Source of the DNA: Bacillota bacterium
Lineage (GTDB): Bacteria; Bacillota_I; Bacilli_A; RFN20; CAG-826
Assembly (NCBI GenBank): GCA_030834445.1
Contig: JAURFC010000001.1
Span: 86,544-150,543, forward strand
Length of the DNA: 64,000 nt
Direction: 5' to 3'
A program made the translations under genes and the position numbers. This document shows positions 7,928 to 56,229 of the stretch, piece after piece (the stretch's first letter is position 1; every line of letters begins with the position of its first letter). The notes under the pieces were generated by a model. It was not told where the DNA came from and did not search any database. It worked only from the letters and a program-made list of their open reading frames with translations.

Positions 7928-8953
7928 ATGCAAGTTGGAATTATTGGATTAGGTCGTATGGGAGAAAATATGTCACGTCGTTTGATAGCCAATGGCTTTA
8001 CAACGATTGGCTATCGTACTTCACTTGATAAAGCGAAAGAACAAGCCCAAAAAGGTTATATTACCTCGGCGGCAACAAGTTTAAAAGATCTCGTTCAGCA
8101 AACAAAAAAACAAGGTGAACGCGGTGTTTTCTTACTCGTTGTTCCTGCACAAACGGTTGAATCAACGCTGGATGAACTCATTCCGCTTTGTGCGCCAGGC
8201 GACATTATTATCGATCATGGTAATAGTAACTTTAAAGATACTGTCCGTCGTCATCAACGACTTCAAGGTCATCAACTTCATTATCTTGATTGCGGGACAT
8301 CCGGTGGTGTTTATGGTTTAACGCGCGGTTATTGTTTGATGGTGGGTGGTGATCAAGAACCTGTTGCCTACTGTGCATCCATTTTTGAAACGTTATCCCC
8401 GGCCACTGACGCAGCGCCTCGCTTACTAACTGATAAACCCGTTTCCCCTGCCGAACACGGATGGTTACACTGTGGTCCAACTGGTGCAGGGCATTTTGTG
8501 AAAATGGTCCACAACGGGATTGAATACGGCATTATGCAAGCGTATGCCGAAGGTCTCAATATTCTTTCACAAGCGAATTTAGGATCTTCCTATCTCAATA
8601 AAGGCGATGCCGAAGTGGCACCGATGGCTGATCCTGAACATTATCAATATCAACTCAATATTCCTGAAATTACCGAATTATGGCGCCGTGGTTCTGTCAT
8701 TGGCAGTTGGTTACTGGATTTAACCGCGGAAGTCTTAAAAGAAAATCCAACCCTTGAAGGCTTTCAAGGGGGTGTCTCCGATTCTGGAGAAGGGCGTTGG
8801 ACGGTGCATGCTGCGGTTGATTTAGGCGTCCCCGCTCCGGTTTTATCCACCGCATTATTTACGCGATTTGAAAGCCGAAACCAAGGCGAATATGCCCGAC
8901 GTGTTCTCAATGGCATGCGGTTCATGTTCGGGGGACATCATGTCCGAAAATAA
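7928..8953 (+). CDS. gnd: 6-phosphogluconate dehydrogenase, short decarboxylating (GntZ-like) type
   Basis: GIIGLGRMGENMSRRL, DCGTSGGVYGL, HNGIEYGIMQAYAEGL. Confidence 0.9.
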   Translation: MQVGIIGLGRMGENMSRRLIANGFTTIGYRTSLDKAKEQAQKGYITSAATSLKDLVQQTKKQGERGVFLLVVPAQTVESTLDELIPLCAPGDIIIDHGNSNFKDTVRRHQRLQGHQLHYLDCGTSGGVYGLTRGYCLMVGGDQEPVAYCASIFETLSPATDAAPRLLTDKPVSPAEHGWLHCGPTGAGHFVKMVHNGIEYGIMQAYAEGLNILSQANLGSSYLNKGDAEVAPMADPEHYQYQLNIPEITELWRRGSVIGSWLLDLTAEVLKENPTLEGFQGGVSDSGEGRWTVHAAVDLGVPAPVLSTALFTRFESRNQGEYARRVLNGMRFMFGGHHVRK

Positions 8954-40156: not shown

Positions 40157-42097
40157 ATGGAAGAAGTTAATAAGAAAATAACGAGTTATAACGAGGATAG
40201 TATTTCTGTCCTTGAAGGACTCGAGGGGGTACGCAAACGTCCTGCGATGTATATTGGGTCAACCAATAGCACCGGTTTGCATCATTTAGTATGGGAAATT
40301 GTCGATAACGCCATCGATGAAGCACTTTCCGGCTTTGGTGACCTTATTACAATTACCCTTCATAAAGATGGATCGTTAAGTGTCGCTGACAAGGGTCGTG
40401 GCATTCCCGTTGGGATTCAAAAACAAACCAATCGCCCTGCGATTGAAATTATTTTTTCAACGCTCCATAGCGGCGGTAAATTTAACGATAAAAACTATGT
40501 TTCCAGTGCGGGTTTACACGGAGTTGGTGCCAGCGTTACCAACGCATTATCCGAATATGTAGATGTGACCGTGTACCGTGATGGTGCCATTCATCACATT
40601 CGTTTTGAACAAGGTGGTAAAGTCATCAAGCCCTTAGAAGTAGTTGGTAAAACAACAAAATCAGGCAGTTTGATTCGTTTCAAACCCGATCCATCGATTT
40701 TTTCAACCGTGGAATTTAAATGGGAAACCATCACAACGCATTTACAAGAATCAGCTTTCTTAATGAAACGCGTACGCTTTTTAATTGTCGATGAACGAAC
40801 CAATCAAACCGCAGAATATTATTATGAAGAAGGTCTTAAAGAATACATTGAATCGTTGAATGAAAATAAAGATCGCCTTCACGATGTCATCACCTTTGAA
40901 GAGGTCGTTCAAGGCATGAATATTGAAATCGCGCTTCAATATTGCCAACAAGACTATAACGAAAACATTTATTCTTATGTCAATAACGTCCGCACCAAAG
41001 ACGGAGGAACCCATGAAAATGGTTTCCGAACCGCATTAACCCGCGCCATCAATGATTATGCGGAGAAAAATGAACTTTTAAGAAACAAACAAAAACTTGA
41101 AGGAAGCGATATTCGCGAAGGTTTAACGGCGATCATTAGTTTACGCATTCCTGAAGGGAAACTTGAATTTGAAGGGCAAACCAAAGGAAAATTAGGAACC
41201 CCGGATGCCTTATCAGCGGTGCAAAATATGTTTTATACCGCCTTAAGTTATTACTTAGCCGAACATAAAGAATTTGCAGTTTCTCTCGTCAAAAAATGCT
41301 TGGATGCGGCCTCGGCACGCGTTGCGGCCCGCAAAGCTAAAGAAGAAGCACGCGGCAATAAAAAATTGCGTCAAGAGATGATCTTATCGGATAAACTTAC
41401 CCCGGCCCAAAGCAAAGATTATCCTGCCAATGAACTGTTTATTGTCGAAGGTGATTCGGCGGGTGGTACCGCTAAAAACGGTCGTGATCGCGTTCATCAA
41501 GCCATTTTACCGTTGCGCGGTAAACCGCTCAATACCGATAGTATCACAATGGATCAAATGTTAAAAAATACCGAATTTGCCACCCTCATCCATGCGATTG
41601 GTGCGGGTGTCGGTCCCAGTTTTGATTTAGCCGATGCCAAATATGGAAAAATCATTATTATGACAGACGCGGATACCGATGGTGCCCATATTCAAACCCT
41701 CTTACTCACGTTTTTCTATCACCACATGCGACCGCTCATTCATGCAGGGAAAATCTTTATTGCGATCCCTCCTCTTTACCGCGTTCTTAATGAAAAAACC
41801 ATGAAGTTTGCCTATGCCTGGAATGATGAACAACTCGAAAGTGCAAAAAAGAAAATTGGATCACCTTACCGTATTTCTCGTTATAAAGGACTTGGGGAAA
41901 TGAATGCTTCCCAGCTGAAAGAAACCACGATGGATCCCAGTACACGTACGCTCATTCAAGTGAATATCGAAGATCCTTTAACCGTGGAACGTCGTGTCAC
42001 CGTGTTAATGGGAAAAGATACAACGATTCGCCGCAAATGGGTGGAAGAAAATGTGAAATTTTCTGCGGATGATACGTTAGGAAAGGTCGCAGTGTAA
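40157..42097 (+). CDS. parE: DNA topoisomerase IV subunit B
   Basis: VLEGLEGVRKRPAMYIGSTN, GLHGVGASVTNALS, IVEGDSAGGTAKNGRDR. Confidence 0.93.
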   Translation: MEEVNKKITSYNEDSISVLEGLEGVRKRPAMYIGSTNSTGLHHLVWEIVDNAIDEALSGFGDLITITLHKDGSLSVADKGRGIPVGIQKQTNRPAIEIIFSTLHSGGKFNDKNYVSSAGLHGVGASVTNALSEYVDVTVYRDGAIHHIRFEQGGKVIKPLEVVGKTTKSGSLIRFKPDPSIFSTVEFKWETITTHLQESAFLMKRVRFLIVDERTNQTAEYYYEEGLKEYIESLNENKDRLHDVITFEEVVQGMNIEIALQYCQQDYNENIYSYVNNVRTKDGGTHENGFRTALTRAINDYAEKNELLRNKQKLEGSDIREGLTAIISLRIPEGKLEFEGQTKGKLGTPDALSAVQNMFYTALSYYLAEHKEFAVSLVKKCLDAASARVAARKAKEEARGNKKLRQEMILSDKLTPAQSKDYPANELFIVEGDSAGGTAKNGRDRVHQAILPLRGKPLNTDSITMDQMLKNTEFATLIHAIGAGVGPSFDLADAKYGKIIIMTDADTDGAHIQTLLLTFFYHHMRPLIHAGKIFIAIPPLYRVLNEKTMKFAYAWNDEQLESAKKKIGSPYRISRYKGLGEMNASQLKETTMDPSTRTLIQVNIEDPLTVERRVTVLMGKDTTIRRKWVEENVKFSADDTLGKVAV

Positions 42098-42099
42098 CG

Positions 42100-44661
42100 A
42101 TGGCAAAAAAAGAGAAAGAAACACCCGTTATTGAAGAACATATTCAACAAGCAACCCTTGAAGACATCATGGGAGATCGCTACGCGACCTATGCCAAATA
42201 TGTCATTCAAGATCGTGCCATCCCTGACATACGTGATGGATTAAAACCAGTTCAACGTCGCATTATTTATGCCATGCATCACGCAGGGAATACTTTTTTT
42301 AAACCGTATCGCAAATGTGCCACCTCAGTTGGGGATGTCATGGGGAAATATCATCCTCATGGTGACGCTTCCATTTATGATGCCTTAGTGCACATGTCGC
42401 AACCATGGAAATTTCGTGTTCCCTTGATTGATTTTCAAGGGAATAACGGTTCGATTGATGGCGATAATGCCGCTGCCCATCGTTATACCGAATCACGCTT
42501 AGCCCATATTAGTGAGTTACTCATCCAAGACATTGAAAAAAATACGGTCGATATGCAGTTGACCTTTGATGACAGCCAAAAAGAACCGGTCGTCTTACCG
42601 GCGCGTTTCCCCAACTTATTACTCAACGGAACCCAAGGGATTGCGGTGGCGATGGCCACCAATATTCCTCCACACAATTTAGGAGAACTCATTGAAGCGA
42701 CGATTTATCGCTTGACGCATAAACGTAGTACGCTTGAAGATCTTTTATCCATTGTTAAAGGACCGGATTTCCCTACGGGGGGACTAATTTATGAAACCGA
42801 TCAACTCAAAAGTATGTATGCTTCGGGTCACGGTCGGGTTGAAATATTATCCCGCGTGGAAACGTTAACCTCCAAAGAAGGTCAACAACTCATCATCACT
42901 GAAATCCCGTATGGCGTTGTGAAATCCTCGCTTGTCAAAGCGATGGATGAAATTCGTTTTAAAAAAATTATCGATGGTATCATTGAAGTTCGCGATGAGT
43001 CCGATCACCAAGGTTTACGCATTGCCATTGATCTCAAAAAAGATGCGCAGGCCGATAAAATTCTTGCGTATCTTTATGCAAAAACCGAATTAAAATCGTC
43101 CTTTTCTGCGAATATGGTCGCGATTCATCACGACCATCCGATTACGTTTGGTTTAATCGATTATCTTGATGCGTACATTGAACATCAAGTCGATGTGATC
43201 ACCCGTGTTTCTCAATTCAATTTAGAAAAAGCGCAAGCACGCTTTGTGCTTGTGGAAGGGCTCATCAAAGCCATCTCCATTTTGGATGACGTTGTTAAAA
43301 CCATCCGTGCGAGTAAAGATAAAGCCGATGCAATGGCGAATTTAGAAAAAGCGTATGGTTTTTTAAAAGTCCAAGCGGAAGCCATTGTCAATTTACAACT
43401 TTATAAGTTAACGAATACCGATATTCATCAACTGGAAGAAGAGAAAAAAGAACTCGCCGAAATGATTGCCGCCTTAGAAGGCATTCTTGCAGACCGGGAA
43501 AAACTTGACCGTCGCCTTATCAAAGAACTCAAAGAAATCCAAAAACAATTCGCTTCGCCTCGTAAAACAGAAATCATTCCTCCACCCGAAACAACCGTTC
43601 AACTTGATAAACGCGATTTAATCGCCAAAGAAGATGTGATGATTGCCGTTACCCGGGATGGGTATATGAAGCGCGCCTCGGTGAAAAGTTTCCGTAGTTC
43701 CGATGCATTATTCCCTGGCATTAAGCCGGGTGATACGTTAGTGGCGATGGGACAAGCAACCACCCTGGATACCTTGTTAGCGTTTACGGACAAAGGCCAA
43801 TATTTATTGATTCCGGTCTATGATTTACCCGATACCAAATGGAAAGAAGAAGGTAAACACATTAACGCCCTCATTACGCTTCCTTCCGAAGATCATTTGA
43901 TTGGGGCCGTGCTTGTTAGTTCCTTTGCCGTGGATGCCCGCCTTATCTTATTAACCAAAAATGGACAAATTAAAAAGACGCGCTTGTCAGATTTCCTGGT
44001 CGCACGTAATTCAAAACCGATTACTTGTATTCGTTTAGCCAATGAGGATGCCTTAGTCAGCGTGGCGGTAAGCAATGGTCGAAGTGACCTCCTCTTATTT
44101 ACGGCAAAAGGCCGTGCCTCCCGTTATGCAGAACACGAACTCTCCACGATTGGCTTAAAAGCTAGTGGCGTAAAAGCGGTGGCAAACCTCGGGGAAGACG
44201 ATGGGCTTGTATCGCTTGTCTGCCTCGATGCAGAAGAACGGCAAAAAATTATGCTACTAACGCAAGAAGGCCATGTTCGCCTTATGGATTCTGACTATGT
44301 CAGTCCGACCCGACGCTTAGCGAAAATGGCGTACGTATTCCAAAGCTTTAAGTCCGAACCGCACTCCTTATTGGCGGTTTCCATCATTGGTAAACAACGG
44401 GAAGCATGGAGCCTTGATGCATTAACTTCGGATGGGGACATCTTCCATTATGAAAGTGCTGACTTTGCTCCGACGCCTGTAGATAAATACGCAAAGAAAA
44501 ACCTTGCCCTCAAAAAGCAGCAAACGCTCCTCTCCCTCTACAAACCTTTCTTGATGGCGATCACGAGTGATTATCCGACCTATCAACCCGTTGAAACCGA
44601 ACCCGAACCTTACGAAGAAGTAACACAACTTTCCATTTTTGAGGATATGCCCAACGAATGA
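42100..44661 (+). CDS. parC: DNA topoisomerase IV subunit A
   Basis: [57 protein letters not shown]. Confidence 0.93.
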
Positions 44662-45194
44662 GGCGATGCTTAAAACGGTTTTTACCCACTTTTTATGCCA
44701 AACGTGTTTTTTCCATACCCTTAACGACGCTTTATCAAAAAGGCTATCGTTACCTTTTTATCGATTTAGATAATACCTTGGCCGCGTTTGATGAACCCTT
44801 GCCGTCCCAATTAACATTGGCATTTTTACAAGCTTGTGATCATGCCGGTTTCACCGTCACCTTAACCTCCAACAATAAACCTGCTCGCGTCACACCCTTT
44901 GCCCACGCGTGTCAAATTCCTTATTTAGCAAGTGTTGGGAAACCTTTTTCTCGGGACATTCTTAAATATTGCGAAGAAAAAGGGTATGCTAAAGATAAGG
45001 TAATCGTCATTGGTGATCAACTCCTGACCGATGTCTGGTTTGCCAATCGCTTAGGCTTTGCGTCCCTATTTGTCGAAAAGCTTGTGCCTCGGGACCATTG
45101 GCCCACGCGATTGAATCGGCTCATCGAAACGCCAATTAAACGGTATTGGAAGCGCCACCACCAACTCATTCCCTTGGAGGAAAACCATGAGTAA
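44658..45194 (+). CDS. YqeG family HAD-type phosphatase
   Basis: YLFIDLDNTLAAFDEP, SVGKPFSRDIL, VIGDQLLTDVWFANRLG; upstream of yqeH. Confidence 0.92.
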   Translation: MRRCLKRFLPTFYAKRVFSIPLTTLYQKGYRYLFIDLDNTLAAFDEPLPSQLTLAFLQACDHAGFTVTLTSNNKPARVTPFAHACQIPYLASVGKPFSRDILKYCEEKGYAKDKVIVIGDQLLTDVWFANRLGFASLFVEKLVPRDHWPTRLNRLIETPIKRYWKRHHQLIPLEENHE

Positions 45195-46323
45195 TGTCAA
45201 AATGATTCGTCGTTGTCCTGGTTGTGGATTGATTTTACAATCCATTGATGAACAACTTCCCGGTTATGTCCCCCCCAAACACGTGGAACGTCATGAAGTG
45301 GTCTTATGCCAACGCTGTTTTAAACTCCAACATTATGGCGAAGATATCGCCCCCAAAGAACAATTCAATGTCGATGAATTCGTCACGATTTTACGACAAG
45401 CCAAAAAAGACAACGCCATCATTATTTGGGTCCTCGATTTACTTCATTTTGAAACGACGTTATCGCCCCAATTAATTCAAGAACTTTCTGGGACAGAAAC
45501 GTATGTTTTTGCCACCAAACGCGATTTATTACCGAAGTCAATCAATCAAGAAAAACTCAAACATTATTTAGCGAAATATTTAGAAAAAAACGTGTTTGTA
45601 TATAAGGACATTTTAATTGTTTCAACCAAAGCAAAAGAAAGCTTACTCCCATTACAAACCATCATTTCCCAATCGGGTGGGACGCGACCCATTTATTTAT
45701 TTGGGGCGACTAGTTCCGGAAAATCATCCCTTGTGAATGCGTATTTAAAGCAATACACGAATGGAACGTACCGCATGATCACCACCTCCGCCTTTCCAGG
45801 GACGACCTTACGCGTCATTGAGATTCCGTTAACCGAAACCCAATCGATCTATGATACGCCGGGGTATATTGCCGATCATTCCTTATTAGCGCTTGTGGAA
45901 AAAGAAACGATTAAAGCCATGACGGCCAAAGTGGAAATCAAACCGAAACATTATCGATTAGGGGCAAAAGACTCCCTCAGTCTTGGCGGCTTAGTGCGTC
46001 TTGATATTCTTTCCGGCCCTAAAAGCATGATGAGTTTTTATTTTGCCAACCAAGTGATGTTCCATAAACAAACGTTAGCCAATGCGGATAAGAGTTTCTT
46101 TCATATGCTTGAAAAGAAAGCACTCACACCGGCTTCCAAACGTTTTCAACAACCTGAAGACTTTGTTCCTTTTGAAATCACCTTACCTGAAAAAGGCCGC
46201 CAAGATATTGCCTTAGCAGGCTATGGATGGCTTTCCGTGCCGTGCTTTGGTCAAACCCTCCGCCTCCTTGTTCCACAAGGAATGCTCGTCTTACCCATTC
46301 CGAGTAAACTATCCCATGAATAA
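45187..46323 (+). CDS. yqeH: Ribosome biogenesis GTPase YqeH
   Basis: CPGCGLILQ zinc site, circularly permuted GTPase ATKRDLLPKS, GATSSGKSSLVNAYL, DTPGY. Confidence 0.94.
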   Translation: MSNVKMIRRCPGCGLILQSIDEQLPGYVPPKHVERHEVVLCQRCFKLQHYGEDIAPKEQFNVDEFVTILRQAKKDNAIIIWVLDLLHFETTLSPQLIQELSGTETYVFATKRDLLPKSINQEKLKHYLAKYLEKNVFVYKDILIVSTKAKESLLPLQTIISQSGGTRPIYLFGATSSGKSSLVNAYLKQYTNGTYRMITTSAFPGTTLRVIEIPLTETQSIYDTPGYIADHSLLALVEKETIKAMTAKVEIKPKHYRLGAKDSLSLGGLVRLDILSGPKSMMSFYFANQVMFHKQTLANADKSFFHMLEKKALTPASKRFQQPEDFVPFEITLPEKGRQDIALAGYGWLSVPCFGQTLRLLVPQGMLVLPIPSKLSHE

Positions 46324-46603
46324 AGCTCTGCTTCGTGATTTAAAACGGATCGCCCAAACCTTACCTGCCCGTTATCAAATTGGCAAAGGTGAACTTTCAC
46401 CCACCGTTTTTGCCTTACTCGATGCGGCTTTAACCGCAAATGAACTCATTAAAATAACCGTCCATGAAACGGTTTGGGAAACCATGCAAACGCAACTTGA
46501 TGCCTTAACTCAATCATTGCAGGCGATGCTCGTCCAAAAAATTGGTCATAAGCTTATTCTTTATCGAGAAAATCCTGCGATTCGGAAGTACGCTTCACGA
46601 TGA
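46316..46603 (+). CDS. yhbY: YhbY-family RNA-binding protein (CRM domain)
   Basis: Small CRM-like protein in conserved yqeH-yhbY-nadD order; start placed at ATG 46316. Confidence 0.88.
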   Translation: MNKALLRDLKRIAQTLPARYQIGKGELSPTVFALLDAALTANELIKITVHETVWETMQTQLDALTQSLQAMLVQKIGHKLILYRENPAIRKYASR

Positions 46604-47694
46604 AACGCCTCCTTTACGGTTCGGCTTTTGATCCGATTCATGACGGTCATCTTGGGATGTTAGCGCATGCGCAAGAACAATGTGGTATTGATGAAGTGGT
46701 ATTAATACCGACCAAAAATCCGCGTTGGAAATCGACCTCGACGCCGATTGAACATCGCTTAGCGATGGTGGCAAAAGCCATTGAAAATAAATTGCATTGG
46801 CGCATTTCTCGTCAGGAAATTGATACCCCAACGGTGGTGCAATTTACCATTGACACAGTTCGGTCTTTTAAAGAACAAGCCCCTGAAGATGATCTTTATT
46901 ATTTAATCGGAGCCGATCAAGTCGAACAATTTCATAAATGGAAAGAGGCAGAAGAACTTGCCTCCCTCGTGCACCTGGTCGCTTACCCACGTCCTGGGAT
47001 GGAAATGCATCATCCAAATTACCATTTATTTCATATTCAGTTGTTAGAAGGACCATCCTTCTCGGCAGCATCTCGCGAAATTCGTACATTAAAACAACTG
47101 CAAACCCCCTTACCGGTCGTGGAGTATATCCTTGATCATGATTTATATTTTACGAAAACCCTTAAAGCCTATTATTCAGAAAAACGGTTTGCCCATGTGT
47201 ATTCAACCGCCAAAGTCGCTTACCGAATTGCCCAAGCCAATCACCTACGCGCGGATCATGCGTTTCAAGCCGCGATTCTTCATGATATGGCCAAAGATCT
47301 ATCCGATGACGTTGCCCTTGATTTAATCCAACAATACGAAACCCATAAAGGACCATTTGAACCGTACGTTCTCCATCAATTCGCTGGTGCGATTTTAGCC
47401 CGCAATGAATTTCATATTGAAGAACCAAGTATTCTTGAAGCCATTCGTTATCATACCACGGGCAATGCCGACCTCCACCCCCTTGCCAAAGTGATTTATG
47501 CTTCGGATAAAATTGAACCGTTACGTGGTTATGATTCCTCGCGTTTAATCAATGCGTGTGAAAAAAATGTCGATGACGGTTTTATTGCCGTCTTAAAAGA
47601 CAATATGCGTTATCTAAAAAATAAAACCTTTAAATGGGATCACCCGTTAGTGCAAGCATGCCTTCATCATTATTTAGGAGAAACCTATGAATAA
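46600..47694 (+). CDS. nadD: Nicotinate-nucleotide adenylyltransferase fused to YqeK-type HD phosphohydrolase
   Basis: LLYGSAFDPIHDGHLGML, SFSAASREIR; then HVYSTAKVAYRIAQANHL...AILHDMAKDL HD motif. Confidence 0.92.
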   Translation: MKRLLYGSAFDPIHDGHLGMLAHAQEQCGIDEVVLIPTKNPRWKSTSTPIEHRLAMVAKAIENKLHWRISRQEIDTPTVVQFTIDTVRSFKEQAPEDDLYYLIGADQVEQFHKWKEAEELASLVHLVAYPRPGMEMHHPNYHLFHIQLLEGPSFSAASREIRTLKQLQTPLPVVEYILDHDLYFTKTLKAYYSEKRFAHVYSTAKVAYRIAQANHLRADHAFQAAILHDMAKDLSDDVALDLIQQYETHKGPFEPYVLHQFAGAILARNEFHIEEPSILEAIRYHTTGNADLHPLAKVIYASDKIEPLRGYDSSRLINACEKNVDDGFIAVLKDNMRYLKNKTFKWDHPLVQACLHHYLGETYE

Positions 47695-48022
47695 ATTACC
47701 AGCGAATGTTCAGACCATGCTCGCTTTACTAGAAGATAAACAAGTGGAAACGATTAAATCCTTTGATGTTCGTTTGAAACATCCTTTAACCGATTTCATC
47801 CTTGTCGGGACGGTCAACAACACTCGTAAGATGCAAGCGATCGTAGATGAGGTACGACGTCTTGCTAAAGGTGAGTCCGTAACTTTACACCATATCGAAG
47901 GGCAACCCGAATCCGGATGGGTACTGTTGGATTGTCATGACATGCTCATTCACTTATTCTCGCCGGAAGTTCGCTTCAAGGTAGAAGTAGAACGAATCTT
48001 AGAAGCCACCCCCTCTCGTTAA
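47687..48022 (+). CDS. rsfS: Ribosomal silencing factor
   Basis: SFDVRLKHPLTDFILVGTVNNTRKMQAI, ESGWVLLDCHDMLIHLFSPEVR. Confidence 0.92.
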   Translation: MNKLPANVQTMLALLEDKQVETIKSFDVRLKHPLTDFILVGTVNNTRKMQAIVDEVRRLAKGESVTLHHIEGQPESGWVLLDCHDMLIHLFSPEVRFKVEVERILEATPSR

Positions 48023-48033
48023 AAAAGATTATT

Positions 48034-48061
48034 ACTTCGCATAATGTATATTATGTAAAGT
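48034..48061. other. Putative dif chromosome dimer-resolution site (XerC/XerD-type)
   Basis: ACTTCGCATAA-TGTATA-TTATGTAAAGT; 11-6-11 layout; CGCATAATGTATATTATGT core as in E. coli dif; arms 9/11 complementary; at strand-switch point. Confidence 0.88.
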
Positions 48062-48090
48062 AAGATAGAAAAAAGACGTCTATAAAAAGA

Positions 48091-48126
48091 AAAAACCATA
48101 TATCAATTGGGTATGTAGTTTTTATT
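48091..48126. terminator. Probable bidirectional terminator between rsfS and deoB
   Basis: AAAAACCATA ... TATGtaGTTTTT imperfect A/T-flanked hairpin between convergent genes. Confidence 0.5.
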
Positions 48127-48145
48127 TATTGATCGTGGAAGCTGA

Positions 48146-48163
48146 GTTTTCCACATGGAAAAC
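48146..48163. repeat. 18-bp palindrome GTTTTCCACATGGAAAAC with DnaA-box-like TTTTCCACA
   Basis: 8-bp perfect arms, 2-bp centre; TTTTCCACA fits TTWTNCACA. Confidence 0.6.
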
Positions 48164-48176
48164 GACTAAATATCAA

Positions 48177-49364
48177 CTAACCGAAGAGGTCTAACATAGG
48201 TTTCCCGATGTGATGAGGAGGTATTTTTAATCCGAAATTGGTAAGGATGGTCGCACCTAAATCAGCAAACGTGGAACGTTGATCGATTAATTTTCCCTTT
48301 ATAAAGGAAGGACTATAAAAGATACCAGGAACCTTTTCTCGGGTATGATCGGTCCCTGTATGGGTTGGATCATTACCATGGTCAGCTGTGATGATGAGGA
48401 AATCGTCCTTGGTAAGTAAAGGGAGAAGTTGGCCAAGTTCGCGATCAAAGGTTTCAATTGCTCGACCATAGCCTATAGGATCGCGACGATGACCATACTC
48501 CGAATCAAATTCCACCAAGTTAATAAAGCATAACCCGCAGAAATCGATGGCAGTTTCTTCCATGGTTTTTTTCATCCCATCGGAATTCGATACCGTCTTT
48601 TGAGATTTTTGAACGCCTTGTTGATTAAAGATGTCGGAAATCTTCCCCACACAACTTGTCATCAAACCATGGTTTTTTAAGACATCTAACGTCGTATCGA
48701 CTTCTGGCGATAACGCGTAATCATGACGGTTTGGTGTACGTTTAAACGAACCTTTTCCTTCCCCAATAAAGGGACGGGCAATAATTCGTCCGAGTAAATA
48801 TTCTGGCCGCATACAAATATCACGGGCAATTTCACACACACGATAAAGTTCTTGAAGCGGTACAACGCGTTCATGAGCGGCAAGTTGTAGGACACTGTCG
48901 GCAGAGGTATAAAGAATAATTTCTCCTGTTTTTAGATGATGTTCACCTAAATCATCAATAATTTGTGTACCACTGGCAGCGATGTTACCCACAAAGCGGT
49001 GCCCTGATTTTTCCGTTAATTCATCAATTAAAGCTTGTGGAAATCCGTGATCCGTGAACGTTTTAAAGGGTTTTTTAATCTCTAAACCCATAATTTCCCA
49101 ATGACCCGTCATCGTATCCTTACCTGCACTTTTTTCCAGCAAGGTAGTCACATATGATTGGGGATGGGAGACAGGCGAGGTTCCCGGAATCGCTTCTAAA
49201 TCATGAAGACCTAACGCATTTAAATGTGGAATTGTTAAACTGCCACAGCGTTGCGCAGTATGTAAAAAGGTATTGGTACCTTCGTCTCCAAACGCCTTGG
49301 CATCGTGTTGTGCACCGATTCCCACCGAATCCATGACAATCAAAAATATTCGTTTAAAAGGCAT
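48177..49364 (-). CDS. deoB: Phosphopentomutase
   Basis: RIFLIVMDSVGIGAQHDAKAFGDEGTNT, GKDTMTGHWEIMG, ITADHGNDPTHTGTDHTREKVP. Confidence 0.96.
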   Translation of the reverse strand: MPFKRIFLIVMDSVGIGAQHDAKAFGDEGTNTFLHTAQRCGSLTIPHLNALGLHDLEAIPGTSPVSHPQSYVTTLLEKSAGKDTMTGHWEIMGLEIKKPFKTFTDHGFPQALIDELTEKSGHRFVGNIAASGTQIIDDLGEHHLKTGEIILYTSADSVLQLAAHERVVPLQELYRVCEIARDICMRPEYLLGRIIARPFIGEGKGSFKRTPNRHDYALSPEVDTTLDVLKNHGLMTSCVGKISDIFNQQGVQKSQKTVSNSDGMKKTMEETAIDFCGLCFINLVEFDSEYGHRRDPIGYGRAIETFDRELGQLLPLLTKDDFLIITADHGNDPTHTGTDHTREKVPGIFYSPSFIKGKLIDQRSTFADLGATILTNFGLKIPPHHIGKPMLDLFG

Positions 49365-49384
49365 ATTTTTTCCTCAAATTCATT

Positions 49385-50266
49385 TTACTTCTTTTTCGTA
49401 TATAAATCAAAAGCGCTCAGGATACGTTGAGAGGATACGTGCGTATAAAGTTGCGTAGTGACTACACTTGCGTGGCCGAGCATGGATTGGACAGCGCGTA
49501 AGGAGGCACCGGCTTCAAGAAGATGGGTTGCAAAAGAATGGCGCAAGGTATGCGGACTGATCGGGACCATAATCCCGACTTTTTGACCGTAAGAGCGAAT
49601 CCGTTGAAAGAAAAATTGGCGACTCAATGGCAAACCTCGTTTTGAAAGAAATAAAAAAGGGGAGCGAAAACGCGTCATCGCCTCCCGATAACGAAGATAA
49701 TCATCGACCGCTTCTAATGCATACTCACTCACAGGAACAAGCCGTGTTTTATTGCCTTTTCCAACGATGCGAAACACACCTTTGAGCCGATCTAATTGAC
49801 TTATTTTTAAGGAAAGTAACTCCGAAACACGCAATCCCGAACCATACATAACTTCTAACATCGCCTTATCCCTAATACCATCTGGGGTAGCGAGTTCGGG
49901 GGCATTTAATAACGCTTCAATTTCATCCACACTTAAGGTAAGGGGCATATGTTGGGGAAGTTTAGGGGGTTTTACATCCAACCATTCTTGCGTGTAATGT
50001 CCTTCGCGTTGAAGGAAAAGAAAAAAGCTTTTCACTGTCGATAAGCGGCGATGAATGGTTTTACTCGATAAACCTAATCGACTTTGTTGTTTGACAAAAT
50101 CCGATAAATCATACGGTGTCAGATCTTCAATACGTTCTTTAAAAGGATGGAAACTTTGAAAAAAGATCGTTAAATCTAAGCGATAATTTTCCAGTGAAAC
50201 AGGACTCAATCCTTTTTCAACGATCAACATATTTTCAAATTGTTTTGCCAGATTTTGTAATAACAT
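49385..50266 (-). CDS. Tyrosine recombinase XerC/XerD type
   Basis: GSGLRVSELLSL, HTLRHSFATHLLEAGASLRAVQSMLGHASVVTTQLYTHV (R, HxxR, H, Y). Confidence 0.93.
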   Translation of the reverse strand: MLLQNLAKQFENMLIVEKGLSPVSLENYRLDLTIFFQSFHPFKERIEDLTPYDLSDFVKQQSRLGLSSKTIHRRLSTVKSFFLFLQREGHYTQEWLDVKPPKLPQHMPLTLSVDEIEALLNAPELATPDGIRDKAMLEVMYGSGLRVSELLSLKISQLDRLKGVFRIVGKGNKTRLVPVSEYALEAVDDYLRYREAMTRFRSPFLFLSKRGLPLSRQFFFQRIRSYGQKVGIMVPISPHTLRHSFATHLLEAGASLRAVQSMLGHASVVTTQLYTHVSSQRILSAFDLYTKKK

Positions 50267-50320
50267 AAACTACTAAATATATACTTATAAATAACTATAA
50301 ACAAACTTTAAAAATAATAT

Positions 50321-50515
50321 TTATTTATTTTCAAGGATTTGTTCAATTTTTAACTCAGCCTCTTTGATGGCCTTTTCGATCGTTTTAATGAGTTGATTGG
50401 CCTCTTCAAAAGCTTTCAAATTGGCTTCCAAATTAAGGGAACCTTCTTCGAGTTGTCCCACTAAGGTTTCAATTCGTTTCATCATGGCATTTAAGTCTAA
50501 TGGTTCACTCATCAT
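50321..50515 (-). CDS. xseB: Exodeoxyribonuclease VII small subunit
   Basis: RIETLVGQLEEGSLNLEANLKAFEEANQLIK; next to xseA. Confidence 0.9.
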   Translation of the reverse strand: MMSEPLDLNAMMKRIETLVGQLEEGSLNLEANLKAFEEANQLIKTIEKAIKEAELKIEQILENK

Positions 50516-51726
50516 TACTTCTCCTTGGGTTTTGTTTCAATCACTTCTGCTGTCATCATACCATCTTTCAATTGGGTCGTAACTTTCATTCCGGGTTGAA
50601 TATCATGAATGGATTTCATCACACGACCATCCTCCGTCATCGTTAACGAAAATCCTCGATCAAGAATACGCGATGGTGATAAAACTTGTAGTTTTTCTTT
50701 CAAGGATTTTGTTTCCAATTTCCATGATTGGATTTGCCATTGCATGGCTTGTTGAACTCGCAAGGAGAATGATTTTGTTTTTTCTTTTTGAATTTGGAAA
50801 CTTGCAAACGGACTTTTCATAACAGGATGGAGCGCAAAACGTTGTAACGGCAAGCGAATACGTTCGAGGGTTCGCTCCAACCCGACTATGGCTTGTTGAC
50901 GGGCTCCATGTATTTCTTGGAGGATATCGCGAACATCGGGGGTGATGAGTTCGACCGCCGCCGTAGGTGTTGAGGCACGGACATCAGCAACCAAATCACA
51001 TAAAGACGTATTAATCTCATGACCAATCGCCGCGACCACAGGAAACGGGGACGTGGCAAGGAGGCGTACTAAATTTTCATCATTAAACGCGGATAAATCT
51101 TCTTCTGATCCACCACCCCGGGCAAGAATCAGACCATCCGCAGGAAGAGTATACGCTTTTTGTAACGCATTCGTTAGTGAACCCACCGCAAGTGCCCCTT
51201 GGACTTTTGCCGGAAGAATGGTTAGTTTCACAAGCGGAAAACGACGGGCCATATTGGCAGTAATATCTTTTAAAGCTGCCGAGTCTTGCCCGGCAATGAC
51301 CACAAGATGACGTGGATAGGGGATAAAGGTTCGTTTTCGGGTGGCATCAAAAAGTCCTTCTTTGGCTAATTTTTCCTTGAGTTGTTGTAAGGCGAGTAAT
51401 TGATCCCCTTCGCCAAACCGTTGAATTTGACGGGCATTGAGTTGAAAACTTCCATCTTTGACATACAACGTCACTTGACCGGTAATTAACACATCATCGC
51501 CATCTTTAGGCAAATAGGCAGGAAATTGTTTATATAAAAACATCACGACATTGAGACGGGCTTCTTGATCTTTAATTGAAAAATAAAGTGCGGTTGGATA
51601 TTTTTTAAAATTACTGACTTCACCACGGATTGTGACGTGTTGAAGAAAGGCTTGTTCATCAAGCACATTTTTAGCGTAGGCATTAATCTCACGAACACGA
51701 AGATAAGGTGGGTTCGTGTTAAGCAT
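50515..51726 (-). CDS. xseA: Exodeoxyribonuclease VII large subunit
   Basis: N-terminal OB fold, LARGGGSEEDLSAFNDENLVR, IGHEINTSLCDLVADVRASTPTAAVEL. Confidence 0.95.
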   Translation of the reverse strand: MLNTNPPYLRVREINAYAKNVLDEQAFLQHVTIRGEVSNFKKYPTALYFSIKDQEARLNVVMFLYKQFPAYLPKDGDDVLITGQVTLYVKDGSFQLNARQIQRFGEGDQLLALQQLKEKLAKEGLFDATRKRTFIPYPRHLVVIAGQDSAALKDITANMARRFPLVKLTILPAKVQGALAVGSLTNALQKAYTLPADGLILARGGGSEEDLSAFNDENLVRLLATSPFPVVAAIGHEINTSLCDLVADVRASTPTAAVELITPDVRDILQEIHGARQQAIVGLERTLERIRLPLQRFALHPVMKSPFASFQIQKEKTKSFSLRVQQAMQWQIQSWKLETKSLKEKLQVLSPSRILDRGFSLTMTEDGRVMKSIHDIQPGMKVTTQLKDGMMTAEVIETKPKEK

Positions 51727-52148
51727 TACAGGACCTTATCAAGAATGGCGTTGACAAACTTATAGTCGCCTTCATCGGCAAATTTTTTCGTTAATTTGAC
51801 GGCCGTATTGATTACCACTTTTTTATCGACATCCCCAATATAGTGAAATTGGGTATACGCGAGTAAAAAAATGGCTTGCGTTAGTGTATTCAATCGGTCA
51901 AAACTCCAGTTTTTTAAGTGCTTCGAAATATGGTCAACCATCACATCATAATGCTTAACCGCTTTAATGAGCACTTCTTTGACAAATAAATCTACATCAT
52001 CGTAGTCACATTCAAAGAAATCCGACATTAACCGTGGCAAATCAAGTTCCTCTTCAATTTTTTGACGAAGTAACACGTTATAAAGGAGCGTCATCGACGC
52101 TTCTTGAGCTTTATTGCGTGTTAAAAGAACGGTTTCCACGGGTTGCAT
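51726..52148 (-). CDS. nusB: Transcription antitermination factor NusB
   Basis: Helical protein with VVINTAVKLTKKFADEGDYKFVNAILDKVL C-terminus; order with xseA. Confidence 0.88.
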   Translation of the reverse strand: MQPVETVLLTRNKAQEASMTLLYNVLLRQKIEEELDLPRLMSDFFECDYDDVDLFVKEVLIKAVKHYDVMVDHISKHLKNWSFDRLNTLTQAIFLLAYTQFHYIGDVDKKVVINTAVKLTKKFADEGDYKFVNAILDKVL

Positions 52149-52160
52149 CCTTGTTCCCTT

Positions 52161-52493
52161 TTATGCGGTGACCTGCACCACTTTGACATGAACTTGAAAC
52201 GGTACCATGTCGGTAAACGCGGTTAAGCTTGAAGCAATTTCTTCTTGAATCGCGAGGCAAATGGCATTAATTTGGCTCGCTTTAGAGATGGTCACTGCCA
52301 CAGAAACAGAGACCATGCCTTTTAAAATTTTGATACTGATCGGTTTAAAAATTTGAAATTTTGACGTAGCAGCAGACACTTTCGCACCCCGAACTTTATT
52401 CGTTGCTTGTTCAGCAATTTGATAAAACACGTAATTAGAAATTGCGAGCGATCCGGTTTTTGCGTAATGATTTAAATAAACGTACTGTGCCAT
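52161..52493 (-). CDS. Asp23/Gls24 family envelope stress protein
   Basis: SLAISNYVFYQIAEQATNKVRGAKV...ISIKILKGMVSVSVAVTI...IQEEIASSL...VQVHVKVVQV. Confidence 0.85.
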   Translation of the reverse strand: MAQYVYLNHYAKTGSLAISNYVFYQIAEQATNKVRGAKVSAATSKFQIFKPISIKILKGMVSVSVAVTISKASQINAICLAIQEEIASSLTAFTDMVPFQVHVKVVQVTA

Positions 52494-52511
52494 ACTTTAA
52501 GTATATCAAAC

Positions 52512-54494
52512 CTACGCGGATTCGCGCGCACGGATAATGGAAAGAATGCGTTCAGAAAGTGCGACTTTTTCAAAGCCAAAATGTGCCAAGGCCACAGAGC
52601 CTGGGGCAGAGACACCAAAGGTATCAATGCCAATACAATGCGTGGCAACACTTGCCCAACCAAATGTGGCAAGCGCTTCTAGGGAAATAACGTTCTCACG
52701 TGTATTTTTTAAAATATGTTGTTGGGTTGCCTGAGGAAGTTGTAAAAAGGCTTCTAAGGAAGGCATCGATACAACATGAACACCGACGTTTTGTGATGCG
52801 AGTTGCGTTTGAACTTCGACAGCAAGTGCAACTTCCGATCCGGTTGCTACGATGGTCCAAGCGTTTGGTAATGGACTTTCAGAAAGCATATAACCTCCTG
52901 AAGTAACTTTATCCACTGCACTATTCGCAAGCAACGGTAATTTTTGTCGGCTTAACACAAGAACGCTCGGTCGGGACGTTTCTTGAAGGGCAGCTAACCA
53001 GGCACCCAACGTTTCATTGGCATCCGCAGGGCGATAAACACGAAGATTAGGAATGGAACGTAACATCACAAGTTGATCAATCGGTTGATGCGTTGGACCA
53101 TCTTCACCGAGGGCCACCGAATCATGCGAAAAGACAAAGATTGAAGGTAGATGGGATAACGCTGCAAGACGAATCGCAGGTTTCATATAATCTGCGAAGG
53201 CTAAAAAGGTTCCGGTAAATGGGCGAAGTCCTCCATGAAGGACAATACCATTTTGAATGGCGGCCATCGCAAATTCTCGAATCCCAAAATGAATATTACG
53301 TCCTTCTGGGTGCGTATACGACATATCCGGCGTATCCGGTAAGGTCGTCATCACCGATTTGGCAACGTCGGCACTTCCGCCGAGAAAGGTCGGAATGGCT
53401 TTGGCTAAGGCTTGAATGACGGTTAAGGAACTATTCCGTGTAGCATCCGCGTACGTTTCTGGGAACGTCACGAGAGGTTGAGGAAGAAATGAACGCCATT
53501 GTTGTTGGATGGATTGGGTAAATGCGTGGGCGATTTTCGGTTGACTGGCTTGCCAGGATGCGAATGATTTTTCCCATTTACGATACGCTTTTTTTCCACG
53601 TTTCATAACCGTATTTTGGAAAATGTCATACACATTTTGTGGGATTTCAAAAGGAGGATGATGCCACCCATAACTAGCTTTGGCGGTTTGACCATCTTGA
53701 TCCCCGAGTGGGTTTCCATGAACTTTATACGTCCCTTGATGAACGGAACCGCGACCAATCGTGGTTTTAATCATAATCATCGTTGGTTTTTCGGTTTGAC
53801 GTTTGGCTTTTTTAATTGCTTTTGAAATGGCTTCGGTATCTTCACCATCGTCGACTGTCAACACATTCCAGCCTGTCGCTAAAAAACGTTTGCGAACGTC
53901 TTCGGAAAACGATTGATGTAAAGGACCATCTAAGGTCACGTCATTGGCATCATAAAATAAAATGAGTTTATGGAGCCGTTGATGGGCTGCGAAAGAAATC
54001 GCTTCTTGTGCAATACCTTCTTGTAAGCAGCCATCTCCGGACAAAACATACGTATAGTGACCAAAGAGGTCGTCGTTACCATAAAGACTGCGCGTCGTTC
54101 GTTCTGCAAGGGCCATCCCTACGGCCTGGGCAATCCCTTGGCCAAGCGGGCCTGTCGTCGCATCGACACCTGGTGTCATGTGTACTTCGGGATGACCGGG
54201 TGTGATGGAACCAAGTTGACGAAAGGCTTTTAAATCATCGATTGAGACATGATAACCTGCTAAATGAAGGGTGGCATAAAGCAACATACTGGCATGACCC
54301 GCGGATAAAACAAAACGGTCACGATTGATCCATTGCGGTTGTTTGGGATACGTCACCATGTGTTCAGCAAAAAGGGTTGCCATGAGGGGCGCACTGCCAA
54401 TCGGCATCCCAGGGTGACCTGATTTCGCGCGATTGGTTGCATCAATCGATAACGCACGAATCGCGGCAATCACGGGCTTTAAATCATTCTTCAT
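52512..54494 (-). CDS. tkt: Transketolase
   Basis: IRALSIDATNRAKSGHPGMPIGSAPL, LSGDGCLQEGIAQEA, THDSVALGEDGPTHQP-type motif; start placed at 54494. Confidence 0.95.
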   Translation of the reverse strand: MKNDLKPVIAAIRALSIDATNRAKSGHPGMPIGSAPLMATLFAEHMVTYPKQPQWINRDRFVLSAGHASMLLYATLHLAGYHVSIDDLKAFRQLGSITPGHPEVHMTPGVDATTGPLGQGIAQAVGMALAERTTRSLYGNDDLFGHYTYVLSGDGCLQEGIAQEAISFAAHQRLHKLILFYDANDVTLDGPLHQSFSEDVRKRFLATGWNVLTVDDGEDTEAISKAIKKAKRQTEKPTMIMIKTTIGRGSVHQGTYKVHGNPLGDQDGQTAKASYGWHHPPFEIPQNVYDIFQNTVMKRGKKAYRKWEKSFASWQASQPKIAHAFTQSIQQQWRSFLPQPLVTFPETYADATRNSSLTVIQALAKAIPTFLGGSADVAKSVMTTLPDTPDMSYTHPEGRNIHFGIREFAMAAIQNGIVLHGGLRPFTGTFLAFADYMKPAIRLAALSHLPSIFVFSHDSVALGEDGPTHQPIDQLVMLRSIPNLRVYRPADANETLGAWLAALQETSRPSVLVLSRQKLPLLANSAVDKVTSGGYMLSESPLPNAWTIVATGSEVALAVEVQTQLASQNVGVHVVSMPSLEAFLQLPQATQQHILKNTRENVISLEALATFGWASVATHCIGIDTFGVSAPGSVALAHFGFEKVALSERILSIIRARESA

Positions 54495-56229
54495 TGTTTT
54501 TGACCTCCATGTGGACATCGTCAAGTTGTTGGGCATCGACGGTATTGGGTGTTCCTTCTAAAAGTCCAACCATCTTTAAGTTTTTCGGGAAAGCGATCAC
54601 ATCTTTTATGTTATCCGTCCCCGTTAAAATCATCGTTAAACGATCAAGGCCAAAGGCAATCCCACCATGGGGAGGTGTTCCATATTGGAATGCTTGAATA
54701 AACCACCCAAATTTACGTTCAATCGCGGCATCATCCATGCCTAAAAGTTCAAAAATACGTCGTTGTAAAGCCCGGTCATAAATTCGCATCGATCCACCCC
54801 CTGCTTCATACCCGTTAATGACTAAGTCATACGCTTGGGCGATAACGGCTTCAGGTTGGGTATCTAAAAAAGAAACATGGTCATCTTTGGGACGAGTAAA
54901 CGGATGATGCGCACTGACGAGTTGACCTTTTTCATTGTGATCAAACAAAGGGAAATCGGTCATCCAGGCGACAGCAAAAGTCTTTTCCGGAATCACCCGA
55001 AGTAAGGTGGCCGCTTTTAAGCGGAGTAAGCCTAAAATCGAAAGCAAGGTAAGACGGTCATCATGGGTCGCAGCAAGCGCAACATCGCCTTCTTGCATTC
55101 CTAAAGATGAGAATAATTGAGTACTATTTTGTTCAAAATATTTCGCAAACGAACCGGTCAATTGACCTCCTTCTTGTTTTAAAAGAACGAGTCCTTTTAA
55201 CCCGAGAGGTTTGACAAAAACAGTCCATTCATCCAATATTTTTCGCGTCACAGTTGCCAATGCATTGGGTAAGACAAGAACGCGCGTAAAGGTTTGCTTA
55301 AAGCCTGCTTTTTCATACGCTTCTTCTAAAACCGAGGGGGCTTTTTGAATCGCTAAATCAAAACGTAAATCCGGTTTGTCACTGCCATAACGTTCCATCG
55401 CATTCGCATAATTCAAGCGCGGAAACGGACGGGGTAAGGTAATTCCTTTAACTTCAAAAAAGACGGTGGCAATCGCTTCTTCCATTAACGATAAAAATTC
55501 ATCTTGTGTTAAAAAAGAGGCTTCAACGTCGATTTGGGTAAAGTCAGGCTGACGATCGGCTCGTAAATCTTCATCGCGGAAACAACGCGCAATTTGATAA
55601 TAGCGATCGAGGCCACCAATCATGAGAAGTTGCTTATAAATTTGCGGCGATTGAGGGAGTGCATAAAAAGTTCCTGTATGGAGACGAGAAGGCACTAAAA
55701 AGTCACGGGCTCCTCCAGGCGTAGATAAGGTAAGTAACGGTGTTTCTACATTCACAAACTGATGGTTCTCAAAAAACTGATGAAAGACGTTCATAATTTT
55801 TGAACGGGTTCGTAAGGTTTCTTGCATCGGGGTACGACGTAAATCAAGGTAGCGATATTTCAATCGAATATCTTCACCGGCATCGGTAACGTCATCAACA
55901 ATCATCGGTAGAGGATCGGAAGCATTAATGACTTCTAAACGTGAAACTTTCACTTCCACTTCACCGGTCGCCAAGGCTTTGTTAGGAACTGCTTTGGCTT
56001 GAACACGACCTTCCACGGAAATTAAGTATTCACTCTTAACGTCAGGAACGATTGTTTCTTCATCGATTAATAATTGAATAATGCCCGAATAATCACGTAA
56101 ATCAAGAAACAATAATGAGCCTAAATTTCGTTTGCGTTGCACCCAACCGACAAGACGAACGTGCTCGCCGACATGGTCAAGACGTAAGGCCCCGTTAGGA
56201 TGACTACGAAAATGGGAGGGATTATTCAT
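54484..56229 (-). CDS. aspS: Aspartyl-tRNA synthetase
   Basis: GWVQRKRNLGSLLFLDLRDYSGIIQLL, QSPQIYKQLLMIGGLDRYYQIARCFRDEDLRADRQPDFTQID, GIAFGLDRL. Confidence 0.96.
   Translation of the reverse strand: MNNPSHFRSHPNGALRLDHVGEHVRLVGWVQRKRNLGSLLFLDLRDYSGIIQLLIDEETIVPDVKSEYLISVEGRVQAKAVPNKALATGEVEVKVSRLEVINASDPLPMIVDDVTDAGEDIRLKYRYLDLRRTPMQETLRTRSKIMNVFHQFFENHQFVNVETPLLTLSTPGGARDFLVPSRLHTGTFYALPQSPQIYKQLLMIGGLDRYYQIARCFRDEDLRADRQPDFTQIDVEASFLTQDEFLSLMEEAIATVFFEVKGITLPRPFPRLNYANAMERYGSDKPDLRFDLAIQKAPSVLEEAYEKAGFKQTFTRVLVLPNALATVTRKILDEWTVFVKPLGLKGLVLLKQEGGQLTGSFAKYFEQNSTQLFSSLGMQEGDVALAATHDDRLTLLSILGLLRLKAATLLRVIPEKTFAVAWMTDFPLFDHNEKGQLVSAHHPFTRPKDDHVSFLDTQPEAVIAQAYDLVINGYEAGGGSMRIYDRALQRRIFELLGMDDAAIERKFGWFIQAFQYGTPPHGGIAFGLDRLTMILTGTDNIKDVIAFPKNLKMVGLLEGTPNTVDAQQLDDVHMEVKNNEE

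Follow-up and report, generated by a model that had tools for sequence, protein, structure and literature searches.

A probable chromosomal dif site with a neighbouring xerD gene in a genome of the Bacilli

A dif site lies close to where chromosome replication finishes, and there sister chromosomes that have become joined by accident are separated. The XerCD/dif systems of Escherichia coli and Bacillus subtilis pair two recombinases and an FtsK carrying a gamma domain with a 28-bp site of 11-6-11 layout, which has unequal arms and occurs in one copy at the terminus; canonically, xer genes do not adjoin dif (PMC2958812). Linkage of a recombinase gene to its own site at the terminus is instead found in XerS/difSL of streptococci and XerH/difH of epsilon-proteobacteria, both of which use one recombinase and atypical sites, difSL being 31 bp long with an 11-bp centre (PMC5357621).

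The locus described here lies in a stretch of 64,000 nucleotides (hereafter the window) from a genome of the Bacilli and shares with E. coli and B. subtilis the site layout, the unequal arms, the single terminal copy, the two recombinases and the FtsK gamma domain. It departs from the canonical arrangement in that xerD is 1.3 kb from the site; in this respect it resembles XerS/difSL and XerH/difH, although two recombinases and a classical 28-bp site are present here. Given the separate XerC and the classical site, a single-recombinase module of either type was rejected. We consider the 28-mer to be the chromosomal dif site with a probability of about 0.97. The site itself is canonical and represents ordinary biology; the conserved xerD linkage, which shows that such linkage is not confined to single-recombinase systems, is a modest addition to what the first-pass annotation of this DNA had claimed.

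Sequence, copy number and conservation of the site

The 28-mer ACTTCGCATAATGTATATTATGTAAAGT has exactly the letters and position (48034–48061) that were first assigned to it, and a recount upheld both the 11-6-11 layout, with arms complementary at 9 of 11 positions, and the extension by flanking TT/AA to a 32-bp imperfect palindrome, which matches itself at 26 of 32 positions. It is intergenic, located as described between the convergent genes rsfS and deoB, whose stops at 48022 and 48177 leave a gap of 155 bp, and the tyrosine recombinase gene noted nearby is indeed present (Table 1). The reported identity of 23/28 with B. subtilis dif is arithmetically right for the sequence that the first-pass annotation had quoted as that of the B. 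subtilis site. The value of 23/28 given for E. coli dif agrees with the published sequence (PMC2731167). The dif sites of Bordetella pertussis and Methylobacillus flagellatus (sequences from PMC2731167) are each identical at 27 of 28 positions; their hosts are Betaproteobacteria, the present one a member of the Bacilli.

Table 1. Features of the dif locus (window coordinates) and the basis of their assignment
Feature	Position	Strand	Basis
dif site, 28 bp, XerC arm - spacer - XerD arm	48034..48061	+	single genome copy, order-wide conservation, conservation profile
predicted XerC-binding arm, ACTTCGCATAA	48034..48044	+	arm order from alignment with E. coli dif
central hexamer TGTATA, predicted strand-exchange region	48045..48050	+	site bases 13-16 variable among 68 relatives
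predicted XerD-binding arm, TTATGTAAAGT	48051..48061	+	TTATGT 99-100% conserved
parC, topoisomerase IV subunit A, in conserved terminus block	42100..44661	+	synteny with relatives; named from ParC/GyrA-type sequence, not by profile
rsfS, ribosome silencing factor, last left-arm gene, points at dif	47687..48022	+	TIGR00090, 75.3 bits
deoB, phosphopentomutase, first right-arm gene, points at dif	48177..49364	-	TIGR01696, 515 bits
xerD, tyrosine recombinase, 293 aa	49385..50266	-	NCBIfam XerD 303.9 bits vs XerC 268.6

The site is unique in the draft assembly, as had been anticipated: one copy was found at up to 3 mismatches in the 1,012,368-bp genome (36 contigs; 93% complete, so that a second copy in the missing part, though improbable, is conceivable), and 100 shuffles of the window gave no match to the 28-mer at that threshold. 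With the arms fixed, the spacer free and up to 2 mismatches allowed, a recognisable dif was identified in 237 of the 282 genomes of the order, 234 of them carrying exactly one; the same pattern reversed, which served as the control, matched in about 10 genomes. When up to 3 mismatches were allowed, the site was present in 53/58 sampled relatives, including 41 of the 42 good-quality genomes. A classical XerCD/dif system, with one site per genome, thus appears to serve this order of the Bacilli, which is poorly characterised. One genome of the order contains a pair of nearly identical dif-like sites, inverted relative to each other at a distance of 146 bp (G069:C136, 8708–8735 on the + strand and 8854–8881 on the - strand).

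Alignment of 68 distinct sites from relatives, together with their flanks, reveals approximately 0.4 bits of information at base 0 and an abrupt rise at base 1, the left edge of dif, to 1.8 bits. The left arm stays near 2 bits throughout, except at base 7, which is C or T; the other XerC-arm positions are 96–100% conserved. Spacer bases 13–16 dip to 0.1–0.8 bits, and TTATGT returns to 2 bits. Left-arm C5 and G6 scarcely vary, whereas the base that faces C5 (base 24) is T in some sites and A in others, so that the arms stay unequal. The sites were collected with an arm-based pattern, and the search therefore accounts for part of the arm conservation; it does not fully explain the sharp left edge, the spacer dip or the count of one per genome, since the reversed control was nearly empty.

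Two different DNA-binding recombinases would be expected to leave such a trace of conserved letters, unequal arms and free spacer; an RNA hairpin would not. This bears on the proposal that the palindrome is a bidirectional terminator of rsfS and deoB whose likeness to dif is incidental, which we regard as very improbable. The palindrome does lie between convergent stops, and a hairpin is predicted in the RNA of both strands (-9.5 and -9.0 kcal/mol; z -3.2 and -5.0), but in a terminator it is the pairing that would be kept, and what is kept here is the letters and the unequal arms; nor would a terminator be expected once per genome or at a switch in gene strand. Moreover, no terminator-like site was found in the rsfS–deoB gap, and many relatives have extra DNA between dif and deoB. 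The palindrome could nonetheless end transcripts as a by-product.

Recombinases, FtsK and the proposed reaction

Alignment of the window XerD shows that all catalytic residues are present (R146, K170, H239, R242, H265 and Y274), and its top PDB match is 1a0p, the structure of E. coli XerD. A profile search revealed a second recombinase on contig C20, which scores 289.6 bits as XerC and 268.2 as XerD; it likewise carries the catalytic residues, and its gene is found at a topA-xerC-rpsB locus (topA and rpsB being named from sequence). Both proteins fall below the NCBIfam equivalog cut-offs (303.9 against 329.6 for XerD; 289.6 against 335.15 for XerC), but each has its higher score for the assigned type. 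The genome also encodes an FtsK with motor, alpha and gamma domains, the last scoring 38.3 bits against a cut-off of 30.6. In a wider sample, dif and XerD co-occurred: dif was present in 20 of 22 genomes with a XerD match, and 7 of 59 genomes without one had dif matches, all of them weak with 2 mismatches. A third tyrosine recombinase (G000:C6:22949-23446) reaches no Xer equivalog cut-off and is taken to be the integrase of an element; it lies near a stretch of low-GC DNA (G000:C6:10001-20000, 27% GC compared with about 41% for the contig), which is possibly a mobile island.

The steps proposed for the reaction follow the XerCD/FtsK paradigm. By analogy, XerC would bind the left arm and XerD the right, and FtsK, at the closing septum, would bring together the two dif copies of a chromosome dimer. 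Its gamma domain would then activate XerD, and strand exchange across the hexamer, probably by XerD first and XerC second, would resolve the dimer. The uniqueness of the site, its conservation and the presence of XerC, XerD and FtsK gamma support the earlier proposal of a dimer-resolution site that marks the terminus.

Position at the terminus

The assignment to the terminus is also supported by a switch in gene strand at the site and by its position opposite dnaA in relatives. Of the ORFs on the 352-kb contig, those to the left of the site number 105 on the + strand and 18 on the -, and those to the right 43 and 137, respectively (Fisher p = 2e-27); a single breakpoint placed among 303 ORFs fits best exactly in the rsfS|deoB gap (logL -150.2, versus -209.9 without a break). 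The organism's own dnaA is on a contig other than that of dif; in two relatives with near-complete contigs (G023 and G063), the dnaA–dif distance is 0.49 of the contig.

The first-pass annotation had proposed that cumulative GC skew should have its extremum at the site. No extremum is seen there on the organism's own contig (G000:C6; 351671 bases), which is almost skewless (0.008 towards dif), and this result neither supports nor refutes the terminus assignment. In G023 (one 1.48-Mb contig; skew 0.08 towards dif), the one relative with measurable skew that was profiled, the sampled values keep a positive sign as far as dif, are negative in almost all samples between dif and dnaA, and turn positive again past dnaA, so that the sign switches at dif. 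The present organism thus combines strong gene-strand polarity with almost no GC skew, and dif pinpoints the replication terminus in a draft genome whose own skew is too weak to reveal it.

The KOPS motifs of E. coli and B. subtilis are rare and unpolarised. The word GAAGAAG points towards dif 149 times versus 35; this bias is gone in genes of opposite orientation (15 versus 18; in G023, 4 versus 11), indicating that its polarity follows the coding strand, and it was therefore rejected as an FtsK-orienting motif. After control for coding strand, the best 6-mers left were AAGAAG and AGAAGT, two weak candidates out of the many words tested, and no convincing polar FtsK-guiding sequence converging on dif was found once coding-strand bias had been removed.

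Gene neighbourhood and the xerD linkage

The gene order at 40157–54536 of the window, parE-parC-yqeG-yqeH-nadD/yqeK-rsfS > dif < deoB-xerD(-xseA-nusB-asp23-tkt), is common to most of 40 dif loci of relatives and forms a conserved terminus block across the order (parE, parC, yqeG, yqeH, nadD, nusB, asp23 and tkt being names assigned from sequence), and the block from parE-parC to deoB-xerD provides a simple rule for locating dif in related genomes. A xerD match lies 0.1–11.7 kb from dif, on the side of the XerD arm, at 35 of the 40 loci; in two genomes of family f8 it is 6–8 kb away on the other side, as is deoB, and at the other three loci the contig ends or no xerD is within reach. In most sampled families of the class, dif is 0.1–12 kb from xerD. 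Among sampled genomes of the class with both on one contig, a xer gene is within 12 kb of dif in about 30 of about 40 (hand count), the exceptions including distances of 50–65 kb in family f19 and 170–240 kb in f18. In many of the sampled families, parC is within about 30 kb of dif. One genome of the class (G293; 2.3 Mb, 99% complete) gave no candidate with a XerD or ParC query.

The orientation of xerD is uninformative, since genes around the terminus face it in any case; its proximity to dif is informative. The likeliest explanation is an old, slowly changing terminus neighbourhood. We think it unlikely that dif, deoB and xerD are held together by selection across the Bacilli, as opposed to being a mere relic of old gene order at the terminus; if the linkage were selected, local or late-replicating expression of XerD by its own binding arm might, for example, aid dimer resolution. 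A limited literature search found no report of xerD–dif linkage in the Bacilli, which is no proof of absence.

It is scarcely credible that the site serves an integrated element for attachment, or is a cer/dif of plasmid type, and is not the dif of the chromosome itself. Integration of XerCD-using elements at dif is known (reviewed in PMC5357621), and contigs of some relatives (G046 and G048) break there. But the genome has only one copy, conserved housekeeping genes flank it in an arrangement shared by most families of the order, and no element is present in the 155 bp between the rsfS and deoB stops; this reading would also need the site to be absent from element-free close relatives, and the opposite is observed. 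The contig breaks are located at the end of G046:C3, at the start of G046:C55 and at G048:C8:1-28; at dif, the pair from G046 shares an overlap of 127 bp, and this branch in the assembly could reflect strain-variable DNA inserted at the site.
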